This document shows positions 9,331-38,900 of a DNA stretch of 64,000 nt, piece by piece (position 1 is the stretch's first letter; each line of letters begins with the position of its first letter). This stretch comes from Methylomonas rapida. Its GTDB lineage: Bacteria; Pseudomonadota; Gammaproteobacteria; Methylococcales; Methylomonadaceae. Below the pieces are notes generated by a model, which was not told where the DNA came from, ran no database searches, and saw only the letters and a program-made list of their open reading frames with translations. The DNA is taken from assembly GCF_024360925.2 (NCBI RefSeq), contig NZ_CP113517.1:2294001-2358000 (forward strand). Reading direction: 5' to 3'. Both the position numbers and the translations under genes were made by a program.

Positions 9331-9342
9331 TTATCGTGATAA

Positions 9343-10132: not shown

Positions 10133-11352
10133 TACACTCGGATTTGTCCTCGCTTACCTTTAGGTACGACTACAATCCCGGATGGGCTAATAGGGTAGCG
10201 TTGCCGATCAGTTGTGGGGTCATAGCCGATCACAGTGGCCGGTTCGATGAGATTATATCGGCCAATGATGGCACGACGAAGACGGGTGCCACTGCCTATG
10301 AAGTTGTAGTCCATGATGATGCAATCTTCAATATCGACGTCGCGCTCGATCATTACCTCATGCCGGATCACCGAATTACGAATATTGCCCCCATTGATAA
10401 TGGTCCCTCCGCCAATAATGCTGTTTCGAATTTCACCGCTAATGATCCTGGCTTCCGGCCCGAAATAGTGATCAGAATAAATGGGCCAATCGGGATTGAA
10501 GGTATCGAACAGAGGCTCCAGTCCAAGCAGGTCCATATGGGCTGCATGATAGGCATCAAGGTTGCCAACATCGCGCCAATAAGAGGGTTCTTCATAAGTT
10601 TTGACGCCTGGGATCCGGTTGGAGGTGAAATCATAAGTGCAGACCTTGTGCGTGCGAATCAGTCTGGGTAGTACATCATGGCCGAAATCTTTTTCTCCTC
10701 GAGCATGAGCTTCTTCCAAAGCATCAATGAGCACATGGGTCTTAAACAGGTAATTACCCATTGAGGAAAAACAGTGTTGCGGATCGCCAGGAATAGGCTT
10801 GGGTTGCGCTGGTTTTTCCTGAAAATCAATGATTCGGAACGAACTATCATGAGTGATGATGCCAAAGTTGTGACCCTGATCCAATGGCACAGGCAAGGCT
10901 GCCACCGTCATATCGGCCTCATGGTCCAAATGAAACTGAACCATTTGGTTAATATCCATGCGATAGATGTGATCGGCTCCAAAGACTGCCACTATGTCGG
11001 GGCGGTGATGTTCTATCAACCCCAGGTTCTGATAGACGGCGTCAGCAGTGCCCTGGAACCATTCCGGGCCACCGCGCATCTGGGCAGGCACGACAGTAAC
11101 GAAGTGATCCGCAATGATATTCGAAACCGACCATGCCCGTCGTATGTGCTCGATCAGTGATTGGGATTTGTACTGAACCAGCAAATAGATCGAGTGGATT
11201 TCGGAATTAACTAGATTGCTGAGCACAAAATCGACGATGCGGTAACGTCCGCCGAAAGGAACTGCTGGCTTGGAACGCTCTGCCGTAAGCGGGTTCAGAC
11301 GAGTGCCTTCGCCACCGGCCAATACTACCGCAAGTACTCTCGGGTTTGCCAT
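10129..11352 (-). CDS. glgC: Glucose-1-phosphate adenylyltransferase
   Basis: ADP-glucose pyrophosphorylase, making ADP-glucose from glucose-1-phosphate and ATP for glycogen synthesis. The nucleotidyltransferase motif LAGGEGTRLNPLT is near residue 10, WFQGTADAV near 95, FGADHIYRMD near 125, and the C-terminal left-handed beta-helix repeats end in RGQIRVY. I use the ATG at 11352 (407 residues), with GGAGAG eight bases upstream; an in-frame TTG eight codons earlier is less likely. The family is allosterically controlled by glycolytic intermediates. Confidence 0.93.
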   Translation of the reverse strand: MANPRVLAVVLAGGEGTRLNPLTAERSKPAVPFGGRYRIVDFVLSNLVNSEIHSIYLLVQYKSQSLIEHIRRAWSVSNIIADHFVTVVPAQMRGGPEWFQGTADAVYQNLGLIEHHRPDIVAVFGADHIYRMDINQMVQFHLDHEADMTVAALPVPLDQGHNFGIITHDSSFRIIDFQEKPAQPKPIPGDPQHCFSSMGNYLFKTHVLIDALEEAHARGEKDFGHDVLPRLIRTHKVCTYDFTSNRIPGVKTYEEPSYWRDVGNLDAYHAAHMDLLGLEPLFDTFNPDWPIYSDHYFGPEARIISGEIRNSIIGGGTIINGGNIRNSVIRHEVMIERDVDIEDCIIMDYNFIGSGTRLRRAIIGRYNLIEPATVIGYDPTTDRQRYPISPSGIVVVPKGKRGQIRVY

Positions 11353-11493
11353 CTTGCTCTCCGATTCTAAAGCCAAATACTCTCAATGAGAAAACACCTT
11401 TGGATCGCCTTTTAACATCGTTTCTTCGCGAGGTGATCCCGGTTGCTTAGCTGAACTGAATTACATCGTGTCGAGACTTCTGATAATCCAGAT

Positions 11494-11841
11494 TCAGGAT
11501 CGAATCATCGTAAGAATCATCTTGAATTGCTTCAGCGCCTTAAGACTGTGCGGTTGCTGCGCGGGTATGAGAATCATATCCCCTCCATGCAAGTGATTGG
11601 GTATACCTGCGATGCTGACTTCCGCTTCGCCTTCGAACACCTGCACCAGGGCGTCGAAGGGCGCCGTATGTTCGCTCAGGCCTTGTCCTTCGTCGAAAGC
11701 GAAGATGGTCACGTTACCCGTTGGCTTTTTGACAATTTCGCGGCTGACGATTGAGCCGTCCTGGTAGTTGACCAACTCGCTGACCCTGGCGATTTCGGCG
11801 CCATTGAGTCCTTTGGCCTTGGGTGTGTTTTCTGCTTGCAT
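11494..11841 (-). CDS. Cupin-domain protein
   Basis: A 115-residue single-domain cupin. The first metal-binding motif is visible around GLSEHTAPFDALVQVFEGEAEV (residues 54-75) and the second around GDMILIPAQQPHSL (87-100). Its function as enzyme or sensor is unknown. An AGGTGA Shine-Dalgarno supports the ATG. It lies in a run of minus-strand genes with rubredoxin and NO reductase and may belong to the same stress response. Confidence 0.82.
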   Translation of the reverse strand: MQAENTPKAKGLNGAEIARVSELVNYQDGSIVSREIVKKPTGNVTIFAFDEGQGLSEHTAPFDALVQVFEGEAEVSIAGIPNHLHGGDMILIPAQQPHSLKALKQFKMILTMIRS

Positions 11842-11922
11842 AATTCACCTTTTCAATCTGTTGTACCAAAGAGACAGAAGCCCGATATTTTCGAGATCTG
11901 TTGTCACGAGTGAAGTGATGGC

Positions 11923-12093
11923 TTATTCCATCAGTTTAAAAAAATCTTTAGGTGCTCCACAGATCGGACAAGACCAGTCATTGGGTATGTCGGCCCAAAG
12001 GGTTCCGGGAGCAAGGCCGCTATCGGGATCGCCCTTTGCTTCATCATAGATATGTTCGCATTCCCGGCACTGATACTTTTTAAAATTGGCCAT
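11923..12093 (-). CDS. Rubredoxin
   Basis: A 56-residue rubredoxin with the two CxxC knuckles that hold one iron: CREC near residue 8 and CPIC near residue 41. The start at 12093 has GGAGAATC just upstream and gives normal family length; the longer frame to 12147 is not needed. It is a small cytoplasmic electron carrier. Near an NO reductase and an NAD(P)H-flavin reductase it could take part in NO or oxygen detoxification, but no dedicated partner is visible. Confidence 0.93.
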   Translation of the reverse strand: MANFKKYQCRECEHIYDEAKGDPDSGLAPGTLWADIPNDWSCPICGAPKDFFKLME

Positions 12094-12186
12094 GATGATT
12101 CTCCAGAATGGATTAGTAATTTGGGTAGATGAAGCAGTCCACGGCAATGCTTTGGATGCCCAAAAGAAAAAAGGATAGCTTCGCCT

Positions 12187-12768
12187 TCATCTTTCAAGTA
12201 CCTCGGTTACTCGCTGCTTAAGCATGGGGAGCAACTCCTTCTCGAACCAAGGATTTCGGCTAAGCCAAATATTGTTTCGCGGACTTGGGTGCGGAAGGGG
12301 GATTATCTCGGGCCCATGGGATTGCCAACCTCGAACAGTCTCGGTAAGTGACGCGCGTGCTTCGCCGATGTGATACGCCTGTGCATACTGCCCAACAACC
12401 AACGTCACTTCAAGATGGTGCAGGTGACCGAGAAGTTGGCCGCGCCATGCCGCCGCGCATTCAGACCGTGGAGGAAGGTCACCGGATTTGCCCGTGCCGG
12501 GAAAACAAAGGCCCAGTGGTAGAATTGCGATCTGTTTCGAGTCGTAAAAGACTTCGCGCGTCACCCCCATCCACTCACGCAAACGCTCACCACTGGCATC
12601 ATCGAAAGGCACTCCGGAGTCATGAGCTTTTCTGCCGGGTGCTTGACTGGCAATCAACACTCTAGCCAGCGGGTGTATTTGTAGAATGGGTCGGGGGCCG
12701 TGCGGCAGATATGCTGCGCAAATACAGCAGTCTTGCACCTCGGTTAGCAAAGATTCAAATGCGCTCAT
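12187..12768 (-). CDS. Uracil-DNA glycosylase-family protein
   Basis: 193 residues with the UDG-superfamily fold. Motif 1 is in ASQAPGRKAHDSGVPFDDASG (residues 40-60) and the C-terminal motif is PLPHPSPRNNIW near residue 158. The HPSPRN variant is found in a little-studied group annotated as uracil-DNA glycosylase family proteins, so glycosylase activity is likely but its substrate is uncertain. Four cysteines near the N terminus are not arranged like a clear family 4 iron-sulfur site. GAGGAAC precedes the ATG. Confidence 0.8.
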   Translation of the reverse strand: MSAFESLLTEVQDCCICAAYLPHGPRPILQIHPLARVLIASQAPGRKAHDSGVPFDDASGERLREWMGVTREVFYDSKQIAILPLGLCFPGTGKSGDLPPRSECAAAWRGQLLGHLHHLEVTLVVGQYAQAYHIGEARASLTETVRGWQSHGPEIIPLPHPSPRNNIWLSRNPWFEKELLPMLKQRVTEVLER

Positions 12769-12828
12769 GGGTGACGTTCCTCACGACAGGCGAACAAACC
12801 GTAGTGGTACATTAATCGTGCTCTCCAG

Positions 12829-13197
12829 CTAACGGAAAAGCCAGTCATTTTCCTGGATCACTATCGCTTGGTTATGCTCTTCGTCCTTAGCTGCATAGAC
12901 GAGCGTGACGATCCCCTTGTCCAGTTCTTGTTTTAAGAGCCGGATTTGCTCGTGATTGTCCTTGAGTTCAGCGAGATACTGATCCTTGAATTCTTCCCAT
13001 CTGCCAAAATCATGGTCAAACCATTTCCGCAGTTCGGTGCTGGGAGCGATATCTTTGAGCCATAAATCAATGCCTGCTTTTTCCTTTGTCAAACCACGCG
13101 GCCAGAGCCTATCCACGAGAATACGCCGGCCGTCATGCTGGTCCGGCAATTCGTATACCCTTTTAATCTTGATGCTATGGTTTTCTGGCTGTTGCAT
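12829..13197 (-). CDS. DUF488-family protein (YeaO-like)
   Basis: 122 residues matching the DUF488/YeaO group: [18 protein letters not shown] near residue 25, LRKWFDHD near 56, and [14 protein letters not shown] near 100. The biochemical role of the family is unknown. It lies between a cupin and a glycosylase-like gene in the minus-strand group that includes NO reductase. Weak ribosome binding site. Confidence 0.88.
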
Positions 13198-13290
13198 TTG
13201 TGAATTGGATTCGCCGGTTGAGTTAAAAGAGTAATCACGAGGTATGGTGCAGTCGCATATTTGAAAATTGCCAGGCCAAGCACTAACAAT

Positions 13291-13620
13291 TTAATCTTTA
13301 AAGATAATTGTGAGCAAAACAACCGAATCAACGACTGCTTTAACTGAGTGCGGCTCATCGGGCATTAAATAAAGTAGCTGGCCGGATGCCAATAGTTGAG
13401 TAGTTCCTATTGCTACGCACTCAATTTCCCCGGTTATACAATGAATCACACACGGCCCTGAAACTTTGTGATCAGCAAATTCTTTGCCTGCCGGAAGAAC
13501 CAGGCGAACCAGTTCCATTTCATCTGTTTTCACAATGACTTTAGTTTTTTCGTTTGGTACGTCTTGCGCCCAAGTTGCCAAGTCAACAATTTCACCTGGT
13601 GATGCGTGATGCGTGGCCAT
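13291..13620 (-). CDS. Cupin-domain protein
   Basis: A 109-residue single cupin: LPAGKEFADHKVSGPCVIHCITGEIE (residues 43-68) and GQLLYLMPDEPHSVKAV (79-95) are the two motif regions. GAGGAAAG upstream fixes the ATG. It is 38 bases downstream of the NO reductase gene and probably co-transcribed. It is a second, different cupin from the one at 11494, and its function is unknown. Confidence 0.82.
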   Translation of the reverse strand: MATHHASPGEIVDLATWAQDVPNEKTKVIVKTDEMELVRLVLPAGKEFADHKVSGPCVIHCITGEIECVAIGTTQLLASGQLLYLMPDEPHSVKAVVDSVVLLTIIFKD

Positions 13621-13658
13621 GAATCTTTCCTCATAAGTTTAAATTTATCAGACACAAG

Positions 13659-15938
13659 CTAATGCACATCCAGCCAGCCTTTGATGGATGCGATTGCCAA
13701 CGGTATGGCGCCAAACAGGATAAATACCAGATCACCGGGCAGACGTAGCCACTCGATCAGGCGCGACCTTTCGCTGCCGATGTAATCAAGGCTGCGAGCA
13801 TGCCAGTATCCATGCTGAACGACATCCCAGACTTGCAACACGCCACTGGGGAACAAGCTCATGATTAACATCAGAGCCAGGCCAACATTGGAGCCCCAAA
13901 ATCCGACCCTTACGTATTTCTCGACGCCGACCCAGCGCAAATCGGAACTGGTCTGGCGCAACACGAATACCATCAGCGCCAATGCCAGCATGCCGAATAC
14001 CCCCATCATCGCGGCATGGCCATGGTTGGGTGTCAGTTGGGTGCCGACTTCATAGTAGCTGACGATAGGCAGGTTGATTAGAAAGCCGAAGATGCCGGCA
14101 CCGACGAAGTTCCAGAAGCCGACTGCCATCAAGAAATAAAACGTCCATTTATGCGGTATGGCTACCGATTTGCCGCAGACGTCGCAGTCGGCACGCGTGG
14201 TGCGCACGAAATCCCAGGCGTCCAGGGTCAGCAGCGTCAACGGCACCACTTCCAGCACCGAAACCATTGCCGACAGTGCCATATTAACGCTGCTCTGGCC
14301 GGTAAAATACCAGTGATGGCCGGTGCCAATTAGGCCTCCGGCGAAATATAGGATGGCGTCAAGGTAAATCACTCGAAGGGCGACGTTGCGCTGGGTAAGC
14401 CCTAGTTGATAAAACAGCAGCGCGACCAGCGTGGTGGCGAAGAATTCAAAGAAACCTTCGACCCATAAATGAATGATCCAGAAGCGCCAGGTATCGACCA
14501 CTGTGAAGTTGGTCTTTGCGCCGAAGAAGAGTGCCGGGATGTAGAACAGCGGAATCGCCAGTGAGGCCAGCAAGAACGCTCTGACCAACGGTTTCGCTTC
14601 TGACTCGTTCAGGGTATCAGGCTGTAGCAACTTAAATAAAAGCGTAAACCACACCAGCAGACCGGCGATAAGCAGGTACTGCCACAGGCGGCCGAGCTCC
14701 AGGTATTCCCAGCCTTGGTTGCCAAGCCAGAACCACCATTGACCCAGGATTTGCGAAATCCCCGCCCACTCGCCTAACAGGCTGCCGCCTATGACCACGG
14801 CGAAAGCACCGAACAGCAGATGAATCCAGCCCGCGAACCAGCGCGGTTCATCATTGCGCAGTGAACGGCCGAGAAACAAGGCTGCGGCGACAAAAGCGGT
14901 GGCAATCCAGAAAACCGCGGTTTGCAGATGCCAGGTGCGCATCAGATTGCTGGGAAATAGCTTCTCCAGCTCAAGGCCATAAAAACTGCCTGGATCGGCG
15001 CGATAGTGCGCCGTTGCACCGCCCACCAAGGTCTGAGCAAGAAACAGCAGCGCCACCACCACGAAAAATTTCACCAGTGCTAACTGACCGGCACTGGCTT
15101 GCCCAGGCAACAGATGAGGATGTACATGATGTCCTGTGCTAATCCAGCCAAGATAATCGAATTTTCCAAACATCAGTAGTACGATTCCAATACCGGCCAG
15201 CAGCACGATAAGGCTCAACGCACTCCATAACAGCGCACCGGGGACGGGCATATTCCCGACGCTGGGGTCGTATGGAAAATTGTTGGTGTAGGAGTAGTTC
15301 TCGCCGGGGCGGTTGGCCACCGAGGCCCAGGCAGTCCATGTGATGAAGGCGGTAAACTGGCGAAGTTCAGTCGGATCGCTGATCAATCCACGCTTGAGTC
15401 CGCCATTCCGTTCAGGATTCAGGAAATAATCCGTCCAATAAGCGATCTGCTTACGATAGGCGGATGTCTCCGGCACGGTCAGACGCAACGTTGCGCTGGC
15501 GGCATCATAATGATTGGTCTTTAGCTCGACTGCGGTTTGTGCATACACGGCGGCCAATTGGCCGGGCGTGAGTGAGGAAAGTGGCTGTTGGTATTGCTGC
15601 TGGGCAATGATAGTGGCGGTGTTCTCGCCGATTCGGTGCAATGCCTCGGCCGAATAATCTGGCCCCAAGTATGCGCCATGACCCCAGATACTGCCGTTGT
15701 TCATCAACCCGTATTTGAGAAAGATAGCCTGGCCTTCTTTGATTTCGTCACCGGAAAACAGGCGAACACCTTGTGCATCAACGATTTGGGCCGGAGTCGG
15801 CGGAGCATTACGATAGGCCAGCGATGTTATGACGATCAGGCCTGCAAAGCCCAGCACCATCACGATCAGCACCGTGCGCAGCCACCAGGGAGACAAATCA
15901 GGGGATTCTTTCATTAAGGGCTGCGCGGCAACATTCAT
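13659..15938 (-). CDS. norZ: Quinol-dependent nitric oxide reductase (qNor)
   Basis: A 759-residue integral membrane protein of the single-subunit qNor type, reducing 2 NO to N2O with quinol electrons. It has the N-terminal extension with a periplasmic domain (KYGLMNNGSIWGHGAYLGPDY) and about 14 membrane helices. Active-site features are present: HLWVEGFFEFF near residue 490, GTGHHWYFTG near 540 for the FeB histidines, and NHGHAAMMG near 635 for haem ligation. The glutamate of HLWVEG is retained, which argues against an NO dismutase. It follows a flavin reductase gene by 17 bases. Confidence 0.93.
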   Translation of the reverse strand: MNVAAQPLMKESPDLSPWWLRTVLIVMVLGFAGLIVITSLAYRNAPPTPAQIVDAQGVRLFSGDEIKEGQAIFLKYGLMNNGSIWGHGAYLGPDYSAEALHRIGENTATIIAQQQYQQPLSSLTPGQLAAVYAQTAVELKTNHYDAASATLRLTVPETSAYRKQIAYWTDYFLNPERNGGLKRGLISDPTELRQFTAFITWTAWASVANRPGENYSYTNNFPYDPSVGNMPVPGALLWSALSLIVLLAGIGIVLLMFGKFDYLGWISTGHHVHPHLLPGQASAGQLALVKFFVVVALLFLAQTLVGGATAHYRADPGSFYGLELEKLFPSNLMRTWHLQTAVFWIATAFVAAALFLGRSLRNDEPRWFAGWIHLLFGAFAVVIGGSLLGEWAGISQILGQWWFWLGNQGWEYLELGRLWQYLLIAGLLVWFTLLFKLLQPDTLNESEAKPLVRAFLLASLAIPLFYIPALFFGAKTNFTVVDTWRFWIIHLWVEGFFEFFATTLVALLFYQLGLTQRNVALRVIYLDAILYFAGGLIGTGHHWYFTGQSSVNMALSAMVSVLEVVPLTLLTLDAWDFVRTTRADCDVCGKSVAIPHKWTFYFLMAVGFWNFVGAGIFGFLINLPIVSYYEVGTQLTPNHGHAAMMGVFGMLALALMVFVLRQTSSDLRWVGVEKYVRVGFWGSNVGLALMLIMSLFPSGVLQVWDVVQHGYWHARSLDYIGSERSRLIEWLRLPGDLVFILFGAIPLAIASIKGWLDVH

Positions 15939-15955
15939 GGTGTTTCAAGCCTTCA

Positions 15956-16678
15956 TCAGTAACCTGAAAACTCTTCCGTGCGGATGTTGTCTTCATCGAC
16001 CCCCGCTTTGCTCAACATGTCACGCATCGCTTTTACCATTGGGGCAGGACCGTCTATGTAAAAAATGGGCAGCGTCAGATCGTCGATGAACTTCAGCAGC
16101 ATGGCTTTATTGATAAACCCGGTTTCGCCATGCCATTCGCGACTGGACTTTTCCATCTCGGCCATAGTGCCGACAAAGGTATAATTGGGGTTGGTGGCGT
16201 GTGCTGCGGACAAATTGTCCAGAAAGGCCGCATCTTCTGGTCTTCGATTAGCATAAAAGACCAGAATTCGGTGCGGAACCCGATCATGCAAGGCTTGCAG
16301 CACAATGCTTCTTACCGGCGTAACGCCTATACCACCGGTAAGAAAAACCGCCGGAACACTGGCATTGTTATGCAAGGTGAACGAGCCATAAGGCCCATCT
16401 AACATCACCTCGGTGCCGGGCTGCATGGTTTTTAATACCCGCTTAAACGCCGTATCACGCATGCGGGCCGCAAAAATAAGGTCGTCTTCGTAAGGGGCGC
16501 TGGCAAACGAAAACGCTCGTGTATTGCCTTCGGCATCTGTTTCAGCGGGATTTATCAATGTCAGGTTGCCGAATTGACCCGCTTTGAAGCTTAACCCGGG
16601 AGGCTTTTCAAAATGAAACGCCATGGTTCCTTCAGCAATTTCGCGGTTGCATTTCAGTTTGACGGTATATTTGGACAT
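15956..16678 (-). CDS. FAD-dependent NAD(P)H oxidoreductase (FNR fold)
   Basis: 240 residues with the two-domain ferredoxin reductase fold: FAD-binding RAFSFASAPYE near residue 54 and nucleotide-binding GGIGVTPVRSI near 115, ending in an FNR-like IRTEEFSGY. There is no [2Fe-2S] or globin domain in the chain, so its acceptor is separate. Being first in line before the NO reductase, it could reduce rubredoxin, a haem protein or the quinone pool; this is inference. AGGGGAG precedes the ATG. Confidence 0.88.
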   Translation of the reverse strand: MSKYTVKLKCNREIAEGTMAFHFEKPPGLSFKAGQFGNLTLINPAETDAEGNTRAFSFASAPYEDDLIFAARMRDTAFKRVLKTMQPGTEVMLDGPYGSFTLHNNASVPAVFLTGGIGVTPVRSIVLQALHDRVPHRILVFYANRRPEDAAFLDNLSAAHATNPNYTFVGTMAEMEKSSREWHGETGFINKAMLLKFIDDLTLPIFYIDGPAPMVKAMRDMLSKAGVDEDNIRTEEFSGY

Positions 16679-17540
16679 GGCGAACTCCCCTGACTTTTGT
16701 TAAAAAGCACAAAAAATAGCCGCAAGTACATGCTATACCGGCTGACATTGAACGCATCGGCATAGAGATTCTTCGTCGCGGCGTCTGCCAGAAAGGCTTT
16801 TCTTTTAGTGACCCGCACCATTTCCGGATGATGCCCGCACAAAAACATGCGCCAGTTTTTCAGACTGGGAAGGCAATGTTGTGAGCACGCCCTGTCGCAC
16901 AACCAGCGGGGACACCGTCCCCGGTATCCAGTAGCTCTTTGGGATACAAACCGCCTCATACCGTTACCGGTTCGGCTACATGAACTCCCGTAAAAAGTTG
17001 CACATAGCCGCTAGCCAAATTCGCGACTGTGATTATAGGTAACTATAGGAATTCATTTAATATAAGACAAACGATTTTTATTGGAATTTAATATCGGCAA
17101 ATCAAATGATAAAGCTGACATTCCGCATTCCCATGCAATATTTTGATAAAAAAATCCGGGGTCATATAGGTCTTGTTATCAAGCATCGATAGCTAAACTG
17201 ACCGGCGGCTATTGAATCAGCTGCTGTCAATACCACTAAAACGTGGCAGCCCGCTTATGGCCGTAGTGGCGCAGTCATAAAGTCAATTTGCTTGCGGAAA
17301 AGCTGCCATTCGCCGAACTTAATGATTGAAAATTTCGCCGGCATCACCAGCGGCCGGTTATGGCCGAAACCGAACGATCAAAGTCTCGCTGGGTTTGTAG
17401 CGGAATCGGTGAGGGATTAGCGATCAGAATACGCACCATAGACACATAAGTCACATGATCTTAGCTACTATTGCCCATTTTCGCACGAATCCTTACGGTC
17501 ACCCTAAAGATCACAGAGACTGCTCCAGAATTTATTTTCC
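16679..17540. other. Long intergenic region with decayed sequence
   Basis: About 860 bases with no convincing gene. The part next to 16678 must hold the promoter of the NO reductase group, but I could not recognise a NorR, NsrR or FNR site with confidence. Around 17290-17400 short words resemble the spacer at 9343-9928. A 101-codon frame at 16654-16959 on the minus strand has no family features and overlaps the reductase start. Confidence 0.4.
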
Positions 17541-17620
17541 TGGTTCCCACGGTTCGCCGTGGGAATCCATGCGCCGCGGAAGACCGATATGCATTCCCAC
17601 GCTGGAGCGTGGGAACGAGA
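17541..17620. repeat. Paired-hairpin palindromic repeat, copy A
   Basis: Two hairpins in a row: the first is GGTTCCCACGG...CCGTGGGAATCC, the second is ATTCCCACGC...GCGTGGGAAC, separated by about 25 bases containing GCGCCGCGGAAGACCGAT. Complete and partial copies recur at 18399, 20511/21989, 22763, 30624 and 39471/40948. The layout is that of REP/BIME-type elements. No RAYT transposase is in the window. Confidence 0.85.
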
Positions 17621-17642
17621 AAAACAGCAAAAGACAAGTTCC

Positions 17643-17667
17643 GTAGGGTACGCACGGCGTACCCTAC
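17643..17667. repeat. Second palindrome type (GTAGGGTACG hairpin)
   Basis: GTAGGGTACG and CGTACCCTAC are perfect inverted 10-mers around CACGG. It lies between palindromic repeat A and the HNH nuclease gene. It could act as a transcription stop or be another dispersed repeat; only one copy is in this window. Confidence 0.6.
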
Positions 17668-17731
17668 ATACTACCCAACCCTAACGTCTTTGGTCTACAC
17701 TGGGCCTTTTTCATCACCATTGGAGCGCTTA

Positions 17732-18370
17732 ATGAAACGACTATTCGCCGCCATTGCCCTGATCTTGGCCCTGCCAGCGCATGCCGAGTTATACAAATGC
17801 ATGGCTGGCGGCAAAGTCAGTTACCAGCAAGGTCCGTGCAGCGCAAGCCAAGATGAAACGATACTGGAAGTTGGAAAAGAATCCGAAAAGACGGATGATT
17901 ACTCTAAAATCTTTTCTCCGGCATCCATCAAAACGCCCACCATATTACGCGATGCGGAAGGCCGCATCGTTCGCAGCGAATCGGCGAAAAACGATTTCAA
18001 ATCAACGCATCCATGTCCGGCCAACGGCCATCGTTCAGGTTCGTGTCCAGGGTACGTAATAGACCATGTCACCCCTCTAGCATGCGGTGGCACCGATGCC
18101 CCGAGCAATATGCAATGGCAAACCGTAGAGGAAGGCAAGGCCAAAGATAAATGGGGACGCGACGGCTGCGAGGTTGTCCCCCAAACATATCATGCGGCAA
18201 GCAAGCCGTCGAAAAGGATTAAATTAAAACCGATAACATCGGGCAATGGCGGTGACTATGACGGTTACAGTTCTTATGGCGGCGGAGATTCAACCGTGCA
18301 CACTGGCCCGCGCGGCGGGCGTTACACGATTACCTCGGGCGGAAACAAAAGTTATCTGCCAAGGCATTGA
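17732..18370 (+). CDS. Exported HNH-nuclease-like protein with DUF4124-type N terminus
   Basis: 212 residues from the ATG at 17732, which has GGAG upstream and is followed by a clean signal peptide (MKRLFAAIALILALPAHA). After it comes a DUF4124-like piece (AELYKCMAGGKVSYQQGPC), then an HNH core with DHVTPLACGGTDAPSNMQW near residue 115. The C-terminal tail is Gly-rich and ends GPRGGRYTITSGGNKSY. An HNH domain behind a signal peptide suggests a periplasmic or secreted nuclease. The longer frame starting at 17471 merely reads through palindromic repeat A. It may belong to the mobile region. Confidence 0.8.
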   Translation: MKRLFAAIALILALPAHAELYKCMAGGKVSYQQGPCSASQDETILEVGKESEKTDDYSKIFSPASIKTPTILRDAEGRIVRSESAKNDFKSTHPCPANGHRSGSCPGYVIDHVTPLACGGTDAPSNMQWQTVEEGKAKDKWGRDGCEVVPQTYHAASKPSKRIKLKPITSGNGGDYDGYSSYGGGDSTVHTGPRGGRYTITSGGNKSYLPRH

Positions 18371-18398
18371 TTAAATTATTAAAAGGATAGGTTATCCC

Positions 18399-18428
18399 TC
18401 GTTCCCACGCTCCTGCGTGGGAATGCAT
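18399..18428. repeat. Palindromic repeat, single hairpin (copy B)
   Basis: GTTCCCACGC-TCCT-GCGTGGGAATGCAT, the reverse complement of the second hairpin of copy A. It sits between the HNH gene and the next gene, about 13 bases ahead of that gene's start codon, so it could affect its translation. Confidence 0.8.
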
Positions 18429-18440
18429 AAAGGAGAAGAG

Positions 18441-19220
18441 ATGACAACTGTTTGCCCAAAATGTGGTTACCAACGCCTGCCAAAAGATGATCATGAAGTG
18501 CCAGATTATCAATGCCCGGCTTGCGGGATTGTGTATGAAAAATTTTTGCAGCACAAAAACAAAGACCGAATGAATGGCTCACAAAAACGAGCAAGCAAGG
18601 TTACCAAGCAAGGCAATATCGAACTAACAGCTATCAAGGTATTGCAAATTAGAGATTGGATTTTTGATGCATTTGAAAAACTTCGGCTTGTCATATTACC
18701 CGTGCTTACTGAGCCGGCATTAATTAGACAACATCTTCCAACTATTGCCATGATTGTTTTAGCAATGGCATCAACGTGGTCTTTTGTCAGTCCAGCGCTG
18801 TTTTTTAAAAATTTACGCGAAACAGCCATAGAAAAAGATGCTAGCGATTTGGTTGGTTATATTGACTTTGAAAAGCTTAGAATGAATCTTAAAGCTACCC
18901 TACTTGAAACAATGAATACGCTTGATAAAAAATCAGCTAAAGAAGATTCTATGCAGGAGGCTGGCAAAGCATTAGGAATTATGATGGCTGATAAGATGAT
19001 AGATACCATGGTATCCCCACATGGCATAAAAGTCATGCTGAGCAAACAAAGCAACAAAAATACCCCATCCGATGAATTGCCGGATTTTGAATTCCACTAT
19101 GTTGATTTTAACAAAGCAAAAATCACTATTGGAGATGGTGTTGTGTCTTTAGATCGTACTGGGCCTTTTTCATGGGTGATGGTAGGTATAAATTTGAATA
19201 TGGAAAATAACACTCATTGA
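18441..19220 (+). CDS. Zinc-ribbon plus DUF2939 membrane protein
   Basis: 259 residues. The N terminus has a zinc ribbon: CPKCG (residues 5-9) and CPACG about 19 residues later. One membrane helix follows (IAMIVLAMASTWSFVSPALFF near residue 105), and then the DUF2939-like part with LVGYIDFEKLRMNLKATL. GGAGAAGAG upstream fixes the ATG at 18441. Codons are clearly more AT-rich than those of the neighbours, which suggests separate acquisition. Function unknown. Confidence 0.7.
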   Translation: MTTVCPKCGYQRLPKDDHEVPDYQCPACGIVYEKFLQHKNKDRMNGSQKRASKVTKQGNIELTAIKVLQIRDWIFDAFEKLRLVILPVLTEPALIRQHLPTIAMIVLAMASTWSFVSPALFFKNLRETAIEKDASDLVGYIDFEKLRMNLKATLLETMNTLDKKSAKEDSMQEAGKALGIMMADKMIDTMVSPHGIKVMLSKQSNKNTPSDELPDFEFHYVDFNKAKITIGDGVVSLDRTGPFSWVMVGINLNMENNTH

Positions 19221-20510: not shown

Positions 20511-20529
20511 TGGTTCCCACGGTCCGCCG
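20511..20529. repeat. Palindromic repeat copy C, left part cut by IS
   Basis: TGGTTCCCACGGTCCGCCG, the start of the first hairpin of the paired repeat. The remainder continues at 21989. The last ten bases (20520-20529, CGGTCCGCCG) are the left copy of the target duplication of the IS. Confidence 0.9.
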
Positions 20530-21988
20530 CTCATCGTTATACACATCTCTGTGCGACAACCTGCTGAGCTTCCAATGCAATGACAAAATCGCGCAAACGC
20601 TGCAGTCCGATCCACATGGCTTTGGCACCCGGCGGCCCGTCATGCTTGCGTCCGAGATAACCGCCCAAGCTCGCCACCAAGAGAATCACTTCGCCCAAGC
20701 GAGGTGGCGTAAGCGGCGGCGGGCAAAGCTTAACCACAATGTAAGCAGCCCGCCACTCCTGTGGATCGAAGATAATTTCACAATCCATGTCCGGCGTAGT
20801 CCGTCCCAACATCAGCGTGAACAATACCCGCCAGGCAATAACCATGTACAACGCTAAACAAGGTAGCAGTCGGTCCTCGGTTTCCAGATGCAGTCGCTTA
20901 ATCTGGCATCCGCTCTTGAGCACATGGAAGTACACTTCAATGCACCACCGCACGGCGTACCACATGACGATCGTTGCCGCCTGTTCGAAACAATCGATCG
21001 GCAAGCTAGTCAACAATAGCCATTCCAAACGTTCCACGCCAGACGGTGGTGCATCTTCGCGTGCCAGCACCGCATTGATGGTGAGTTCCGGTAGCCGATA
21101 CCCTATCCGCTTAGGCGGTTTGAGGGTCACTGTAATGGCGCGTAACGTGATATGCGCCAGTCGCGCCGTGCGGTTCGGTCGCGGTTTGACGTTCACCTCA
21201 GAGTAACCCAATACAGGAGCTTGCTCCACGGCGGCCCACAGGCATTTCGTACCGTTCTCCGGCGAAGCCAACACTCGGTTTTGCGCCGCACGTACGATCC
21301 ATTGAGCCCGTACCGCAGGTGCGTAGTCATGGTATTCGGCAAACCACTCGTAAATATCGCCCTCCCTGTCGGCAAGATTGATCAGCAGGGTGTCCGGCAT
21401 TTGCGCCTGTAAAGCGCAACTGTCCTGGTAACTTTCCAGCCAATGGCGACTCTCTTTTTCGTCTACGCCTTTGTGAAGTCGTTCACTCCTTTGGCTTGGG
21501 ATCTCTCGAGGCCAATACGATGCTTTCACGACACCCAAACAAATACGCGATGGCGTAAAGGCAACTGTCGGATGCAGGCGGCGCAAGTGTTTCTCCACGT
21601 CTTTCACTGTGCCAAGTCCCTTCGGCCCCAAGCAAATATTCTTATCGTCCTCGGTGGTGTCCTGTGCCAGCAGCACGATTGGGCTGCTCTTCATGCGCTC
21701 GATCGTGGCATCTCGATGCGGCGCCAGTATCTTCTCGAATGTCGTCTTAGCGTTATTGAAGAAGCGATAGGCTCCCATCGTCTCCTTCCAGCCTCCGCAG
21801 GCCGCCGGAATACTGAGTTGTGGATGCTCGCCCAATTGCTCCAATAGCAAGGCCAATCTCTTGTTTAGACGTTGATCTTCCAAATTGGCAGTTTGCACTT
21901 CTTCTTCGGCCCAGTTGCTCATCGCCTTTCTCCTGTTTCTGTGTCTCCTTGTAGTTTAGTCTTTGAGGGACTTGTGTATAACGATGAG
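20530..21988 (-). mobile_element. IS4-family (IS50/Tn5-like) insertion sequence, copy 1
   Basis: 1459 bases bounded by inverted ends CTCATCGTTATACACA (16 perfect bases) and flanked by the direct repeat CGGTCCGCCG on both sides. The left end continues TCT and the right end continues AGT, so the two ends resemble the Tn5 mosaic end and Tn5 outside end respectively. It carries one transposase gene. It has inserted into the loop side of a palindromic repeat. A second copy is at 39489. Confidence 0.93.
20537..21922 (-). CDS. IS4-family (Tn5-like) transposase, copy 1
   Basis: 461 residues with a Tn5-type N-terminal domain (WAEEEVQTANLEDQRLNKRL) and all DDE residues: Asp88 in LLAQDTTEDD, Asp185 in LADREGDIY and Glu329 in the YREK motif (Tyr322, Arg325, Glu329, Lys336). 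It should be active. It ends eight bases from the left IS end, as in compact ISs. A YREK motif and ends of the TTATACACA type place it with IS50. Confidence 0.95.
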   Translation of the reverse strand: MSNWAEEEVQTANLEDQRLNKRLALLLEQLGEHPQLSIPAACGGWKETMGAYRFFNNAKTTFEKILAPHRDATIERMKSSPIVLLAQDTTEDDKNICLGPKGLGTVKDVEKHLRRLHPTVAFTPSRICLGVVKASYWPREIPSQRSERLHKGVDEKESRHWLESYQDSCALQAQMPDTLLINLADREGDIYEWFAEYHDYAPAVRAQWIVRAAQNRVLASPENGTKCLWAAVEQAPVLGYSEVNVKPRPNRTARLAHITLRAITVTLKPPKRIGYRLPELTINAVLAREDAPPSGVERLEWLLLTSLPIDCFEQAATIVMWYAVRWCIEVYFHVLKSGCQIKRLHLETEDRLLPCLALYMVIAWRVLFTLMLGRTTPDMDCEIIFDPQEWRAAYIVVKLCPPPLTPPRLGEVILLVASLGGYLGRKHDGPPGAKAMWIGLQRLRDFVIALEAQQVVAQRCV

Positions 21989-22060
21989 CGGTCCGCCGTG
22001 GGAATCCATGCGCCGCGGAAGACCGATATGCATTCCCACGCTGGAGCGTGGGAACGAGAA
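21989..22060. repeat. Palindromic repeat copy C, right part
   Basis: Begins with the right target duplication CGGTCCGCCG, completes the first hairpin (CCGTGGGAATCC), then the GCGCCGCGGAAGACCGAT linker and the second hairpin. Apart from the IS, copy C is almost identical to copy A. Confidence 0.88.
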
Positions 22061-22101: not shown

Positions 22102-22437
22102 TCAAGCATTCACCTCGCGGCTCAAGGCCTCGCCAATCCATTGATTGATGCTTTTGCCTTGGGCCGCCGCCGCGCTGACGATGCTGGCATGCAAATCGGC
22201 GGGGATGCGCACGTTGAATTTTCCGGAAAAGGCCTTGAACGGTTCTATGCCGGATTCTTGGCAGGCTTCAAGATACACGCGCAAAGAAATTTCACCTTCG
22301 CGCTTCAATCCAGCCACGTCGGCGGCATAAAAGTCCGCGCTGCCGCTCAAGCCCACAAACTCACCGCGAAACAACTCGAGGTCGGAATCGTAAGTAATCA
22401 CGGCCTTAACGCCGGCTATCATCATTTGATTAATCAT
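22102..22437 (-). CDS. hicB: HicB-family antitoxin
   Basis: 111 residues. The N-terminal half is the partly degraded RNase H-like HicB fold (DLELFRGEFVGLSGSADFYAADV) and the C-terminal half is a ribbon-helix-helix DNA-binding part (KFNVRIPADLHASIVSAAAAQGKS). It would neutralise HicA and repress the operon. Its start overlaps the toxin stop by 4 bases, in the toxin-first order normal for hicAB. Confidence 0.9.
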   Translation of the reverse strand: MINQMMIAGVKAVITYDSDLELFRGEFVGLSGSADFYAADVAGLKREGEISLRVYLEACQESGIEPFKAFSGKFNVRIPADLHASIVSAAAAQGKSINQWIGEALSREVNA

Positions 22438-22688
22438 GGATGTACTCCGTGAGATTTAAGCCAGTCGCGCACGCTGGCCACCGCGCCTTTATCGGTGTTG
22501 GGCGATGGATGCGGGCGGTGAAAAACGCGCACCTGGCCAAACAATACCACGCAAACCCGTGAACCTTCGCGTTCACTGACCGTTGCGCCCAGCTCCAGAA
22601 ACAGCGACTCGATGTCGCGCCATGGGATATTCGCGCCGACAGGATGCGCGAAAAGCGCCTCGATGGTTTTTTGGTGTTTGCGTTTCAT
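22434..22688 (-). CDS. hicA: HicA-family toxin
   Basis: 84 residues with the small double-stranded-RNA-binding-like fold: IPWRDIESLFLELGATVSEREGSRVCV, then HRPHPSPNTDKGAVASVRDWL. The usual histidine is followed by the KGAV...VRDWL C-terminal helix typical of HicA. It would cleave mRNA. With HicB it forms a stabilising or defence module placed between the IS and the phage head genes, where terminase genes would be expected. Confidence 0.9.
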   Translation of the reverse strand: MKRKHQKTIEALFAHPVGANIPWRDIESLFLELGATVSEREGSRVCVVLFGQVRVFHRPHPSPNTDKGAVASVRDWLKSHGVHP

Positions 22689-22928: not shown

Positions 22929-23141
22929 ATGAGCTTCGCCACCGAAACCTTGGCACTGGCTCAGGCCGCTTACCAAAAAGCCTTGGCCGGGCAGACCGTC
23001 GAATTCGGCGGCCGCCGTTTCACGTCACACGACATTGGCGCGCTGTTGAGCCAGGTCAAACATTGGCAAGCCGAAGTCGATAAGGAAGCGGCCAAGGCTG
23101 CCGGCACCGGCAAGCGCTCACCGATCAGGTTCTATCTATGA
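22929..23141 (+). CDS. gpW-like head-tail joining protein
   Basis: 70 residues with the gpW family pattern: AYQKALAGQTVEFGGRRFTSHDIGALLSQVKHW and a basic C terminus. In lambda, gpW sits at the portal and is needed for tail attachment. Its stop overlaps the portal start by 4 bases. It is the first surviving structural gene; the expected large terminase gene upstream is absent. Confidence 0.85.
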   Translation: MSFATETLALAQAAYQKALAGQTVEFGGRRFTSHDIGALLSQVKHWQAEVDKEAAKAAGTGKRSPIRFYL

Positions 23142-24748
23142 CCTCGCACGTCGCCGCCGATCTGTCGGATGCCCGTTTAGCCGCCTGGGTGCCGCCGATG
23201 AAATCGGCCGATGCCGATTTGCTGAGCGAGCTGCCGGTCATCACCAACCGCGCCCGCGATTTAGTACGCAACAATCCCATCGCGGCGGGCGCCAAGCAGA
23301 CGCTCACCGACAATATCGTCGGCAGCCAGTTGCGTTTATCCGCCCAGCCCAAATACCGCCTGCTGCACTGGGACAAAGAGCGCGCCAACGACTGGGCTAA
23401 TATTGCCGAAGATCAATTCGCCACCTGGGCCGACACGACCGAATGCGACGCCGCGCGCACGCAAACCCTGCAGGGCTTGACCACGCTTTCGCTCGGCAGC
23501 GCCTTCATGAACGGCGACGCGCTGGCGTTGGTGATGTGGCTGCCGCGCGTCGGCTCGCCGTGGGCCACCCGCTTGCAAACCGTAGAAGCCGATCGTTTGT
23601 CCACGCCGCCCTGGCTATTCAATCAAAAGCATGTGCGCAACGGTGTGGAAATCGACGATTTAGGCGCGCCGGTCGCGTACTGGATCCAAAAAAGCCATCC
23701 GGGCGACGAAAACTATTGCCCGGCGGGGCAAGACGATTGGGAGCGCGTTCCCGCATTCACCTCCAGCGGCCGCCGCCGCGTCATTCATTTGTTCGACAAG
23801 GACCGTTCCGGCCAAAGCCGGGGCAAGTCTATCTTTACCTCGGTCATGCGGGAATTCAAAGTGGCCGGCGATTATCTCGGCCACGAATTGCAGGCGGCGG
23901 CGTCCAATGCACTGATTGCGGCCTTTCTGGAATCCGATCTCGATCCGCAAACCGTTGCAGACTTGTTCGGCTCGGACATCGGTACCGCCTCTGACTACTG
24001 GCAACAGGTTAGCGCCGCCACGCACCGCAAGAAAATGGAAGGTGGCATGATGTTGAACCTGCCGCTCGGTACCAAGTTGTCAGGCTACAACCCCAACCGC
24101 CCGAATACCGCATTCAATGGCTTCATGGAGTCGGTCCTGCGCCATATCGCCGCCGGCCTGAACATCCCTTATGAACTGCTGCTGAAGGATTTCTCCAAAA
24201 CCAACTATTCCAGCGCCAGAGCGGCTTTGCTGGAAGCCTGGCGGTTTTTCCAGTCTAAACGCAAATGGTTGCAAGACCATTGGTTGAATCCGATCTACCA
24301 ATGCTGGATGGAAGAAGCCGTCAACGCCAACCGTATCGATGCGCCGCAATTTTACGACAACCTCCACGCTTATACCGGCGCCCGCTGGGTGTTTGCTGGC
24401 CGAGGCTGGGTAGACCCTGTGAAAGAAAGTAAGGCCTCACAGATGCGGATGGAAATCGGGTTGTCTACCCAACAGGACGAATGCGCCGAACAAGGCAAGG
24501 ATTATCAGGAAGTGCAAGACCAGCGCATCCGCGAATTGGTGGAGGCGTTCCAAAAGACAGAAGCCGCAGGCCTGCCGGAACAGGCCGCGTACCTCATCGC
24601 CGGATTCGCCGCGCCTGGTAAGGCCTCGGCATCTGTGCAGGCGCTGGATGCGATGCCGGATGACGTAGCAGACGACCAAAACAACGACGCTCAGCAACAG
24701 GACGATGATCCTCAGCAGAACAATAACTCTACATCAAGCAATGAGTAA
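23138..24748 (+). CDS. Phage portal protein (lambda gpB type)
   Basis: 536 residues of the lambda-type portal family: DLVRNNPIAAGAKQTLTDNIVG near residue 45, YWIQKSHPGDEN near 182, and HIAAGLNIPYELLLKDFSKTNYSSARAA near 347, the most conserved block. The C terminus is a Gln/Asn/Asp-rich tail. It forms the dodecameric ring through which DNA enters the capsid. Full length. Confidence 0.95.
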   Translation: MTSHVAADLSDARLAAWVPPMKSADADLLSELPVITNRARDLVRNNPIAAGAKQTLTDNIVGSQLRLSAQPKYRLLHWDKERANDWANIAEDQFATWADTTECDAARTQTLQGLTTLSLGSAFMNGDALALVMWLPRVGSPWATRLQTVEADRLSTPPWLFNQKHVRNGVEIDDLGAPVAYWIQKSHPGDENYCPAGQDDWERVPAFTSSGRRRVIHLFDKDRSGQSRGKSIFTSVMREFKVAGDYLGHELQAAASNALIAAFLESDLDPQTVADLFGSDIGTASDYWQQVSAATHRKKMEGGMMLNLPLGTKLSGYNPNRPNTAFNGFMESVLRHIAAGLNIPYELLLKDFSKTNYSSARAALLEAWRFFQSKRKWLQDHWLNPIYQCWMEEAVNANRIDAPQFYDNLHAYTGARWVFAGRGWVDPVKESKASQMRMEIGLSTQQDECAEQGKDYQEVQDQRIRELVEAFQKTEAAGLPEQAAYLIAGFAAPGKASASVQALDAMPDDVADDQNNDAQQQDDDPQQNNNSTSSNE

Positions 24749-24753
24749 AGAAC

Positions 24754-25104
24754 ATGGAAAACCAACATAGACATATCAAAGGCTATCGTGAATTAAGTCA
24801 GGAAGAAATCGACTTGATGAACCGTATCAAAGTAAAGGGTGAAGAACTGCTTTCTTTGCATGCCGAGCTATCCGGTCGCCTTTCTACTGATCATGACGTT
24901 AAATTGAGCGGTGCTCGCCGATCCATGGAAGGTAAGGAGTTCAATGGTGTTCCTTACAATGAACATACTGGCGCGTCAGATGAATGCCATGAATTTCGTC
25001 GTTTTATTGCCGCCGAGCCACAGAGATGGTCGGCAATAGGCAAGACAGATATCCAGACCGGCATCATGGCATTAGTTCGGGCGATAGCTCAGCCATCGGT
25101 GTAA
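24754..25104 (+). CDS. Acb2/Tad1-hairpin-like anti-CBASS protein
   Basis: 116 residues opening with NQHRHIKGYRELSQEEIDLM and closing with IGKTDIQTGIMALVRAIAQP, the two halves of the Acb2 helical hairpin family. Phage Acb2 proteins form hexamers that sequester cyclic di- and trinucleotides and so block CBASS defence. Tyr11 and Lys26, which I recall as ligand-binding residues in the studied phage protein, are at the same positions here. The middle (about residues 45-85) is longer than in the compact form. It lies between portal and protease genes, a moron-type position, with 5-base and 4-base gaps. Confidence 0.82.
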   Translation: MENQHRHIKGYRELSQEEIDLMNRIKVKGEELLSLHAELSGRLSTDHDVKLSGARRSMEGKEFNGVPYNEHTGASDECHEFRRFIAAEPQRWSAIGKTDIQTGIMALVRAIAQPSV

Positions 25105-25108: not shown

Positions 25109-26380
25109 ATGCCCCTGCGTAACCCCGCGCTGTTCGCGCGCATCTTCAACACCCCGCTGATGATTGGCGCGGCCAAACTGGATGCCATCATTGCCGGCAT
25201 CGGTCCGCGTTTCGGCATCGATGCGCCGCAGCCCGACCTATTCCTGACCGCCAGCGGCGAATTCAGGCGGCCAGGGTACCAGCTCGTCGGCAACGTGGCG
25301 GTCATCGACGTGTTTGGCATTCTGGCGCATCGCGGCAGCTTCGATGCCAATTGCAACTATATATTGGGGTACGACTGGCTGTCGAAAAAAATCGATATCG
25401 CCATCAACGACCCCGACGTTCAAGGCCTACTGCTGCAAATGGATTCCCCCGGCGGTGAGGTGGCCGGGGCGTTCGAACTGGCGCAGCAAATCCAGGCTGC
25501 CGGCCAGGTCAAGCCGATCAAAGCCGTGATTTCCAGCCTGGCCGCGTCAGCCGGCTATCTGATTGCCAGCGCCGCGCAAGACATTGCCATCGCCGAAACC
25601 GGTCTGGCAGGCTCTATCGGTGTCGTGATGCGCCACGTTGACGTATCCAAAATGGCTGCCGACCAAGGCATCAGCATCACGCACATCTTCGCCGGTGCGC
25701 AAAAGATCGATGGCCATCAATTCGCCGCCTTGCCGGATGACGTCAAAGCCAAATTTCAGGCCGAAATCGACGGCCTTTACACCCTATTCGTTGACACCGT
25801 GGCCGCCCATCGCGGCCTCGATGTCGCGGCCATCCGCGCACAGGAAGCCGGAATCTATCGAGGGCAGGACGCCATTCAGGCCGGATTGGCCGATCGTATC
25901 GCTACGCCGGACCAGGTTCTGGCCGAGATGCAGCAATCTTTTTCATCATCCCCAGGAGGTCGTTACATGACTACCCAAAAACCCGAAGCCGCCGCCGATG
26001 CCGCTGCGCTGGAGCAATCCCGCGCGGCCGGTTTTGAAGCCGGCAAACAGGACGGCCTGAAAGCCGGCGCGGAACAAGAGCGCGCCCGCATCAGCGCCAT
26101 TCTCAACCACGAAGCCGCCGAAGGCCGGCAAACGCAAGCCAAAGTCCTGGCGCTGGACACCGACATGACGGTCGAACAAGCCGCCAAAGTACTGGCCGTT
26201 TCGCCCAAAGAGGCCGCGCCCGCCGCGCAAGGCGATCAGTTCAGCCAGTACATGGCCAAACAGAAAAACCCGTCTGTCGGTGCCGACGGCGGCGACGAAC
26301 AACCCGAAACCGCCGCAGCGACCCAAGGCTGGCATGCCGCCATGGGGAAAGTCGTGGCCTTGAGAGGAGATAAACGCTAA
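25109..26380 (+). CDS. S49-family head maturation protease with scaffold region (gpC type)
   Basis: 423 residues. The N-terminal 285 are a SppA-like serine protease: [13 protein letters not shown] after DSPGG near residue 112, the likely nucleophile Ser147 in [12 protein letters not shown], and the likely general base Lys199 in [11 protein letters not shown]. The C-terminal 137 residues are a charged Ala/Gln-rich scaffold. This is the lambda gpC-Nu3 arrangement: protease and scaffold guide procapsid assembly and are then degraded. Stop and decoration start overlap (TAATG). Confidence 0.92.
25967..26380 (+). CDS. Nested scaffold protein (Nu3 type), in-frame internal start
   Basis: An ATG at 25967 in the frame of the protease gene has AGGAGGT at 25954-25960, a near-perfect ribosome site at ideal distance. 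The product would be the 137-residue C-terminal scaffold alone, starting [20 protein letters not shown]. Lambda makes Nu3 from inside gene C in just this way. Confidence 0.8.
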
Positions 26381-35958: not shown

Positions 35959-38900
35959 ATGACCATCCTAGCAAACGACATAAAACTGATGAAAGCGGAC
36001 ACCATGTCCGACGTGGCTGAAGGCGGCGGCGCCATGACCGGCCAGCCGATCCTCGACGGCGTGTCCAATAACATGTTCGACGACGTGTCTACCTTGGATC
36101 GGGTGTACGGCGCGGTGCATCTGCGCAAAGCCTTCGGTGCCGTGCAAACCGCCAACCAAGACAAATATTACGGCGCTCATGCGATCATCAGCAAATTGCC
36201 GGGCGATCAGAAAATCGGCGTCAACCTGTTCAACACCGGCGACTGGTTCGACCGCCGGCCGGTTGCCGCGTCGCGCATCGAGAACTACCGGGCCCAAGGC
36301 CCCATCTACGCTGGCTTCTTGTGGGGCACGCAATACATGGGCAGCCGGGCGGTCACGATCTTTCAAGGCGTGACCGCGCCTTTGCCCGGCATCGGCGACG
36401 TGTTGCTGCTGGTCGCCAGCGGGGGCAGTCAGTATATCCGCATCGTTGATCTGGAGTATTCCGACCAGCAATTCACCGATGACAAAGGCACCTTTACCCG
36501 CCGCATCATTGAAATCGAAATCAGCGACGTGTTGCAGCGCGATTTCGTCGGCGCGGAAATGTCGCGATTCGACACGCTCAGCCCCGCGGCCAAAATCTAC
36601 AAAACCGTGGTGGCCAATGCCGCCCGTTATTATTCTGCCCGACCTTTGGCCTTGGCGGCCAATCTCAACGCCGTCGAAATCAAGGTCGATTCGGTTTACT
36701 CGCAAGTCGTGCCCGCCTCACAGGCCGAACGCGCCTTGGTTGACGTAGAATCCGCCTCGATTGCGGCGCCGGTGATGGACGCCGCGCAAACCACCACCAG
36801 CTTTAGTACCGGCATTACCTTCCAGGCCAATAGCACCTTATACCTGGGTAGCCCTTGCGTGCCGGGCTCGTTGGTGATCAGTGGCGGTGCCAGTTTGACC
36901 GACAATGCCGGCAAGGTGCTCAGCGGCAGTACCGTGGTGGGCAGCATCGATTACGCTGAGGGCCTGATTACGTTTGCGCCCACATCGCCAACCTACGGCA
37001 GTACAAAAACCGTGGTATTCCGGCCAGCCGCCGCGCCGGCCATGCCTGCCGATACCGATGCCATTCCAGTCACGGCGGCCAATCGCGGCTATGTCTGGGC
37101 TTTGACGCTCACGCCGGCGCCGAAGCCGGGCGCTCTGCGCGTCAGTTACCGCGCCATGGATAAATGGTATGAGCTGCGCGATAACGGCTCCGGCGGTTTG
37201 ATAGCGGATGAAGCGGGCATCGGCACGGGTACGGTCAATTACGTGACAGGCGGAGTGTCGATCACCACGGCGGCCTTGCCCGATGTCGGTTCTGAAATCA
37301 TGTTCGCCTGGGGGCAGGCCGCCGATTATTTCAATCGCTCTAATCTGGCGATAGGCAAAGTGACCTTCACGCATCAGCTCGGCAACATGGGCTTTGCCCC
37401 GGAAACCCTGGTTATCACCTGGAACGATGGCAGCGCCTGCACGGCTACTGTCAACGCCAGCGGCGTGATCAGCGGCGATGCCACCGGTAACGTCAACCTG
37501 GTCACGGGCGTGGTCAGCTTCAGCCCCAACAGTTTGCCGCTGGGCGGCACCACTTTTACCTTCAATTACAATTGGGGCACGCCGATCACCAAAACCTTGA
37601 CCGCGTTTAATATCAGCGGTAATCAGGTCACGCTGGATGTGGCGGACACCGATCTGGTGCCAGGCTCGATTTCGGTGGCGTGGAATGCGCCGTGGGCGGC
37701 TGACCCTATCAAACTATCTCCAACGCCAAGCGGTAGTATCAAGCAGGAAGATAGAGATAATGGCGTGGGTGGCCTTATCGGTGGGCGCTCTGCGACGATT
37801 GATTATGCAACAGGCATTCTGGTATTCAATCACAATACGTCGGGGATTTATAAAGGCGCGATGTACACCAAGGGTTCCAATCCCTATAAAGCTGGCCACT
37901 ACTCCGCGATTTACGACTATGGCTATTACTCAGCCAACACCACCGCGCCTTCGGAATTCGTCGTCACCTACCGCAAAACCAGCCCCGGCACGGCGGCGCA
38001 AGAAACCTTGGTGGCCAGTGCCTTGCAAATCGACCTGACGCCGGGCTACGCCGAAAACGTCATCCCAGGCAGCGTGCTGTTCACGTTGGGCGGCCGCACC
38101 TACTTCGACCGCCTGGGCCAGCTGTTTTACAACATCGACCGCGCCACAGGCTCTGCCACCTTGGGCGGCACGCTGGATTACACCACCGGCGTTTGCAGCA
38201 TTAGTGCCTGGGCCTCGGGCCAATCGCCCACGCCGTCACTGTTGGCACTGGCCACCAGCATGAACTGGCGACCGGTGGAAGTGGCGGTATTCCGCACCTT
38301 GGCCGCGCCGATCAAGGTAGGCGTGTTCCAGATTCGCGCGACCGCCGCCGATGGCACGCAACTGGAAGCCACTGCCAACGCTCAAGGTGATATTGTGGCC
38401 AGTCAGATTGAAGGCAAGATCGAATACGACACCGGCGTCGTCAAGCTGCGCTTTGGCGAACTGGTCACGGCAGCCGGCAACGAGGGCGAAGACTGGTACA
38501 TCGCTGAAAACGTCGAAAACGGCCAAATATGGAAGCCTAAGATGGTGCTGGCCAACAGCATTATTTACACTACCGTGTCCTATACCTATTTGCCGCTGTC
38601 TTCCGCCATTCTGGGCCTCGATCCGGTGCGCTTGCCTGCCGATGGCCGCGTGCCGATCTATGCGCCGGGGGATGTGGTGGTCGTGCTCAACGACCAAACT
38701 ACCACCGGCACCTTTACCAGCAGCTCAACCACTAACCTGGGCCGGGTGCGCCTCGCCAAACTGACGGTACGCGATTTGGGCGGCAATGCCTTGCCTACCA
38801 ACAAGTACACGGCTGATCTTGACGCCGGTACTATCACATGGGGCGATTTATCCGGCGTATCGCAACCATTGACTATCATCGACCGTATTGAGGACATGGC

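Follow-up and report, generated by a model that had tools for sequence, protein, structure and literature searches.

What is encoded by the short gene that separates the portal gene from the head protease gene in a damaged prophage of Methylomonas rapida, and could its product still act on signalling in the host? We addressed this question in a 64,000-nucleotide stretch of the genome (contig NZ_CP113517.1, positions 2,294,001 to 2,358,000, hereafter the window), in which the gene occupies 24754-25104 on the forward strand as a clean frame of 116 codons with no internal stop. Our analysis indicates that this acb2-like gene very probably encodes a cyclic nucleotide sponge of the Acb2 type, with binding predicted, and that it is a small accessory gene lodged between tailed-phage portal and head protease genes. 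It is an ordinary member of the Acb2 family in an interesting setting.

Family assignment and predicted fold

A preliminary description of the locus had assigned the product to the Acb2/Tad1 hairpin family, and profile searches bear this out. The PF24729 (Acb2/Tad1 hairpin) profile matches the 116-residue product in two stretches with 64.9 bits against a curated cut-off of 27 (E 7.7e-18), and the solved Acb2 'p26' sequences in the PDB match at E 1.2e-22 and 4e-22 (8h2j and 8ixz). PHROG returned two families, both without a function name (phrog_717, E 1.9e-26), while tblastn matches to the product occur in 217 of 50,697 phage records at E <= 1e-3, and 20 of 72,556 plasmid records match at E <= 1e-8. 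NCBIfam assigned no family to the product, and a PADLOC scan of it gave no match, as is expected of a library that holds defence rather than anti-defence genes. A chance open reading frame was rejected, since the PF24729, PHROG, PDB and phage-record matches lie far beyond chance. Membership of the product in the Acb2 family is near certain.

Both terminal motifs singled out in the preliminary description are present, with Tyr11 and Lys26 where it had placed them. Relatives were gathered by words of the query, and the sample therefore leans towards the query's kin; the alignment (A1) holds 63 of 97 sequences, query included, with near-copies and some others omitted (PaMx33, JBD67 and HJ05 among them), whereas residue and length counts use all 82 distinct rows. 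Tyr11 is kept in 81 of these rows, and Lys26, Thr98, Asp99, Arg109 and Gln113 are each invariant (82/82). Lys26 presumably takes part in ligand binding. Profile alignment to T4 Acb2, using a numbering offset of one inferred from Tyr8, equates Tyr11 with T4 Tyr8, Thr98 with Thr68 and Ala112 with Phe82, so that two of the three T4 ligand positions are kept and the third, Phe82, is Ala both here and in PaMx33. According to two papers, Y8A disrupts cyclic dinucleotide binding by T4 Acb2 and Phe82 stacks on the ligand (PMC12657218), and T68M lowers affinity (PMC12657230). In one relative (L060, gene from 3001), Cys replaces the otherwise constant Tyr11; this is possibly a natural binding-loss form, comparable to T4 Y8A.

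The helical hairpin implied by the family assignment is recovered in an AlphaFold2 monomer of the product (predicted local distance difference test, pLDDT, 91.8), which fits Acb2 crystal chains to 1.7-1.8 A over 88-89 residues, with 8h2j and 8h2x the best matches. Modelled helices at residues 4-7, 16-58, 76-87 and 89-111 form a short N-terminal helix and two long antiparallel helices, as in Acb2. Tad1 proper was rejected as an identification, the model having only the helix at 4-7 ahead of residue 16 and no N-terminal beta-sheet before the hairpin.

Reviews list 3'3'-cGAMP, 2'3'-cGAMP, cUA, cUU, cAA and cA3 as ligands of Acb2. By analogy with the proteins they describe, expression of the phage gene would yield an Acb2 protein whose helical hairpins associate as a hexamer. 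Cyclic dinucleotides would be held in pockets to which two protomers contribute their conserved N- and C-terminal parts, cyclic trinucleotides would occupy the ends of the central channel, and sequestration of these signals would keep the effector of a cyclic oligonucleotide-based antiphage signalling system (CBASS) off. For the present protein, we infer the hexamer, the binding, the expression and the opposed CBASS alike.

Table 1. Positions of the acb2-like gene, its parts and related features (window coordinates except where locus L005 is named).
Feature	Position	Strand	Basis or remark
acb2-like gene, Acb2/Tad1 hairpin family	24754-25104	+	ATG to stop, 116 aa; PF24729, PDB p26 8h2j/8ixz, Acb2 fold match
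Conserved N-terminal part, residues 1-30, with Tyr11 and Lys26	24754-24843	+	21/30 identical to PaMx33 Acb2
Hairpin-tip segment of variable length, residues 46-75 (end of a helix, then a small beta-hairpin and a loop)	24889-24978	+	row lengths, model elements, pN/pS
Conserved C-terminal part, residues 88-114, with KTDIQT and Thr98	25015-25095	+	22/27 identical to PaMx33
Portal gene, lambda family	23138-24748	+	PF05136 E 4.3e-104; ends 5 bases before acb2
S49 head protease gene	25109-26380	+	PF01343 E 3.9e-33; starts 4 bases after acb2
Prophage structural part, head-tail adaptor to tail protein	22929-44891	+	boundaries approximate
Insertion sequence (IS) transposase gene, left copy, Tn5-type domains	20537-21922	-	PF02281, PF14706; 1,478-bp stretch identical to right copy
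IS transposase gene, right copy, inside tail region	39496-40881	-	same 461-aa product
CD-NTase gene	L005 8730-9728	-	PADLOC PDLC00802 E 1.1e-152, PF18144
S_4TM effector gene	L005 7798-8721	-	PF18159 E 1.1e-77

The portal/protease junction and the prophage

The position claimed earlier, between portal and protease genes, stands, with the PF05136 portal gene on the 5' side and the PF01343 S49 protease gene on the 3' side. The guanine-plus-cytosine (GC) fraction of acb2 is 0.464 (0.427 at third codon positions), against structural-gene means of 0.590 and 0.704, and none of 4,033 overlapping in-frame 351-base stretches from eight structural genes is as low on either count. Eight genomes, the host's own included, carry the portal; among their loci the junction was read in that of G040 only, with L104-L109 (27-31% identical) left out. 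In G040 (L103), the closest backbone relative found (portal 61% identical), the start of the protease gene falls within the last part of the portal gene and acb2 is absent, and in phage KLER1-1 (L110, portal 43.2% identical) the two genes likewise overlap without acb2.

Three other loci carry acb2 exactly between PF05136 portal and head-type protease genes. One is in Stutzerimonas degradans (L087, 4038-7600), with an S49 protease and an acb2 product 77% identical to ours; the others are viral contigs (L068, 1505-4446; L082, 1508-4449) with a Clp-type protease and products 56% and 56% identical. Elsewhere, the near neighbours of acb2 relatives (within 900 bases; 10 proteins in 8 loci) comprise terminase and portal (L009), capsid and neck (L011), endolysin (L006, L012), Q (L013), DAHP synthase (L101), a protein of unknown function (L020) and, again, the portal of L087. 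The search for neighbours covered 96 loci, the related viral loci being the best 80 of 91 stretches; neighbours could be missed where little flank was present (the upstream flank is under 1,700 bases in 6 of the 96, and the downstream flank under 1,300 in L019, L021 and L047), as could portals too distant for tblastn at any locus. The low GC and the two empty junctions speak for a recent arrival of acb2, but an early presence followed by loss, or gain on several occasions, would account for the data equally well. Given the three loci that share it, the junction is either a recurrent landing spot or a long-held site that some lines have given up.

The surrounding prophage genes in the window encode adaptor, portal, protease, decoration, capsid, holin, tail and tape-measure proteins. 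The preliminary description had pictured a defective prophage with an intact sponge gene; the damage and the intact acb2 frame both hold, but the prophage is probably not simply short of parts. A whole-genome search gave a single GpA-type terminase match, upstream of the window (L122 14964-16943; G000:C1:2269964-2271943) and preceded by TOPRIM, DUF5906, Bro-N and Rha genes, which led us to reject the idea that this terminase is missing. The adaptor gene is about 45 kb away, across a segment holding Tn3-type transposase genes (L122, L123) along with cobalamin and other host genes, named by reading translations. Gene content and order suggest that the terminase segment and the structural genes of the window once formed one prophage, and, because the sole GpA-type terminase gene lies upstream, this was probably split by the ~45 kb rather than merely trimmed. 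IS copies lie at 20527-22004 and 39486-40963 of the window and at the start of L122, where the copy is interrupted and cut by the locus edge.

Three further features of the prophage region may be recorded. The product of 26380-27234 matches head decoration protein D over residues 3-281, although that profile has only 116 positions, and an inner stretch matches one tail-fibre family and one family of unknown function; this suggests a decoration protein into which another domain has been inserted. The IS is separated from the structural genes by a HicB/HicA toxin-antitoxin pair (22102-22688, minus strand). The gene at 35959-39456 encodes a 1,165-residue protein that matches phrog_6128 (unknown function) near full length with 1,293 bits.

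The hairpin tip and competing readings of the gene

The product had also been described as longer in the middle (about residues 45-85). This is correct relative to the 93-residue PaMx33 protein, to which only 6 of the 57 query residues at 31-87 are identical, but it is not a special feature: Acb2 lengths span 93-118 residues, 26 of the 82 rows reach at least 115, and a unique long middle was accordingly rejected. No row is shorter than the PaMx33 protein, which also has the longest terminal branch in a tree of poor resolution (82 rows, 87 columns; 18 of 75 inner branches starred, 33 open). The model shows the added residues extending the hairpin and capping it with a small beta-hairpin near 62-67 (strand residues 62-63 and 66-67), between a helix that ends at 58 and one that starts at 76. 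The tip is under purifying selection: its ratio of nonsynonymous to synonymous differences (pN/pS) is 0.25-0.49, below 1 in 8/8 pairs (whole gene 0.19-0.25), where direction alone counts because synonymous sites are nearly saturated.

Such a constrained tip raises the possibility of an extra or different job for the sponge, whether through an additional ligand site, a knob that binds a partner or a different oligomer. The tip, small beta-hairpin included, is modelled with high confidence (mean pLDDT 92-98 for the ten-residue blocks across 41-80). Ser57, Gly73 and Cys78 occur in 26/26 long rows and Gly65 in 92% of them, and Tad2 offers an analogy, since according to a review its high cGG affinity is due to a long insertion (PMC12043709). 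Against this, Acb2 length varies by small steps from 93 to 118 residues, which suits a tolerant loop, and within the long rows the tip is the least conserved part (mean 0.57 at residues 60-74, 0.87-0.89 at the ends). Deletion of acb2 in phage JBD67, whose Acb2 has 108 residues, is partly rescued by Acb2, as relayed in PMC13083879, citing Huiting et al. 2023; an intermediate tip therefore goes with ordinary function. A literature search on a longer Acb2 tip found no study. We regard a separate job for the tip as unlikely, and a tolerated, folded extension of the hairpin as the simplest reading.

The location of the gene invites another interpretation, in which its product is a head-assembly accessory. 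Its place between portal and protease genes, repeated with either type of protease at the three loci described above, agrees with this, but portal and protease genes overlap without acb2 in two backbone relatives, other family members sit in unrelated places (by a DNA adenine methylase gene in VP882, near replication genes in PaMx33), and Acb2 family members are tested sponges. A structural head protein was thus rejected on its absence from the two backbone relatives, shared position notwithstanding, and an accessory role in head assembly is highly improbable. A further reading takes the gene as a silent relic, its Acb2 sequence correct but its prophage dead, with neither expression nor effect on the host; this concerns activity rather than identity, and we give it an even chance. 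The probable split with its transposases, the IS copy inside the tail region and the failure of PF24729 to match in 60 of 61 related genomes searched, all but the host itself (misses being possible, as the profile matches the acb2 product only in two pieces), fit a relic; the full-length frames of the acb2, portal, protease and capsid genes and the existence of TOPRIM, DUF5906, Rha, Bro-N and terminase genes upstream count against it. A more elaborate proposal holds that prophage damage leaves acb2 stably inherited, damping host CBASS or tuning other cyclic-nucleotide signalling, and that the enlarged tip provides a further site, for a ligand or a partner, which solved Acb2 lacks, giving long Acb2 proteins a different signal range; we consider this combination very unlikely. 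The reading we prefer remains that of an ordinary Acb2-type sponge.

Host cyclic-nucleotide systems and known sponges

The host genome encodes a candidate opponent for such a sponge. Locus L005 (G000:C1:1543000-1562000) contains, at 7798-9728 on the minus strand, adjacent CD-NTase and S_4TM genes with full-length frames, which by gene content appear to constitute a two-gene CBASS; this resident pair is a plausible target of Acb2. Twelve of 61 genomes, the host's among them, carry SMODS domains, and a search of titles and abstract openings found no paper on S-4TM CBASS and its ligand. We also observed a type III CRISPR locus (L120, G000:C1:3136500-3156400; 6733-18796, plus strand) with Cas10, RAMP and Csm6-HEPN genes and a Cad1-like CARF/adenosine deaminase gene; no repeat array was seen within that stretch at the settings used. 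A studied Cad1 responds to cA4 and cA6 and not to cA2 or cA3 (PMC11645235), and a di-/trinucleotide sponge would therefore not be expected to block the resident Cad1-like gene. mCpol (PF18182) has no match in the host genome, the one genome searched, and the Panoptes trap, which Acb2 would trigger, is thus absent by that test.

These observations document a long-tip Acb2 sponge gene and a two-gene CD-NTase/S_4TM CBASS on one chromosome. Because three other phage-like loci hold acb2 at the portal/protease junction, where two backbone relatives lack it, this junction seems to be a recurrent site for the gene. With the structurally studied 93-residue Acb2 the shortest of 82 distinct rows, the longer tip is open to direct test.

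The Acb2 of Pseudomonas phages PaMx33/PaP2 (p26; PDB 8h2j, 8h2x, 8ixz) has the same fold, is identical at 49 of 92 aligned positions and shares the conserved ends with Tyr11, Lys26 and KTDIQT; it differs in its gene neighbourhood and in its short hairpin turn, 23 residues shorter than here. The closest phage match is p26 of Vibrio phage VP882 (75.7% identical over 115 residues, long middle included), a phage mentioned in none of the 15 papers listed, of 19 matched by a literature search, whose gene differs from ours in following the tail genes. JBD67 Acb2 is 60.5% identical and likewise lies in a head-gene region, but has a shorter tip and neighbours that include a Mu F-like protein gene. Vs.4 (Acb2) of phage T4 (PDB 7uq2) is more remote, with 26% identity in structural alignment, a weak profile match (E 0.073) and a Phe82 that corresponds to Ala here. 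Tad1 shares the Pfam hairpin family PF24729 but has an N-terminal antiparallel beta-sheet, as described in PMC12043709, whereas the model of the M. rapida protein begins with a short helix at residue 4.
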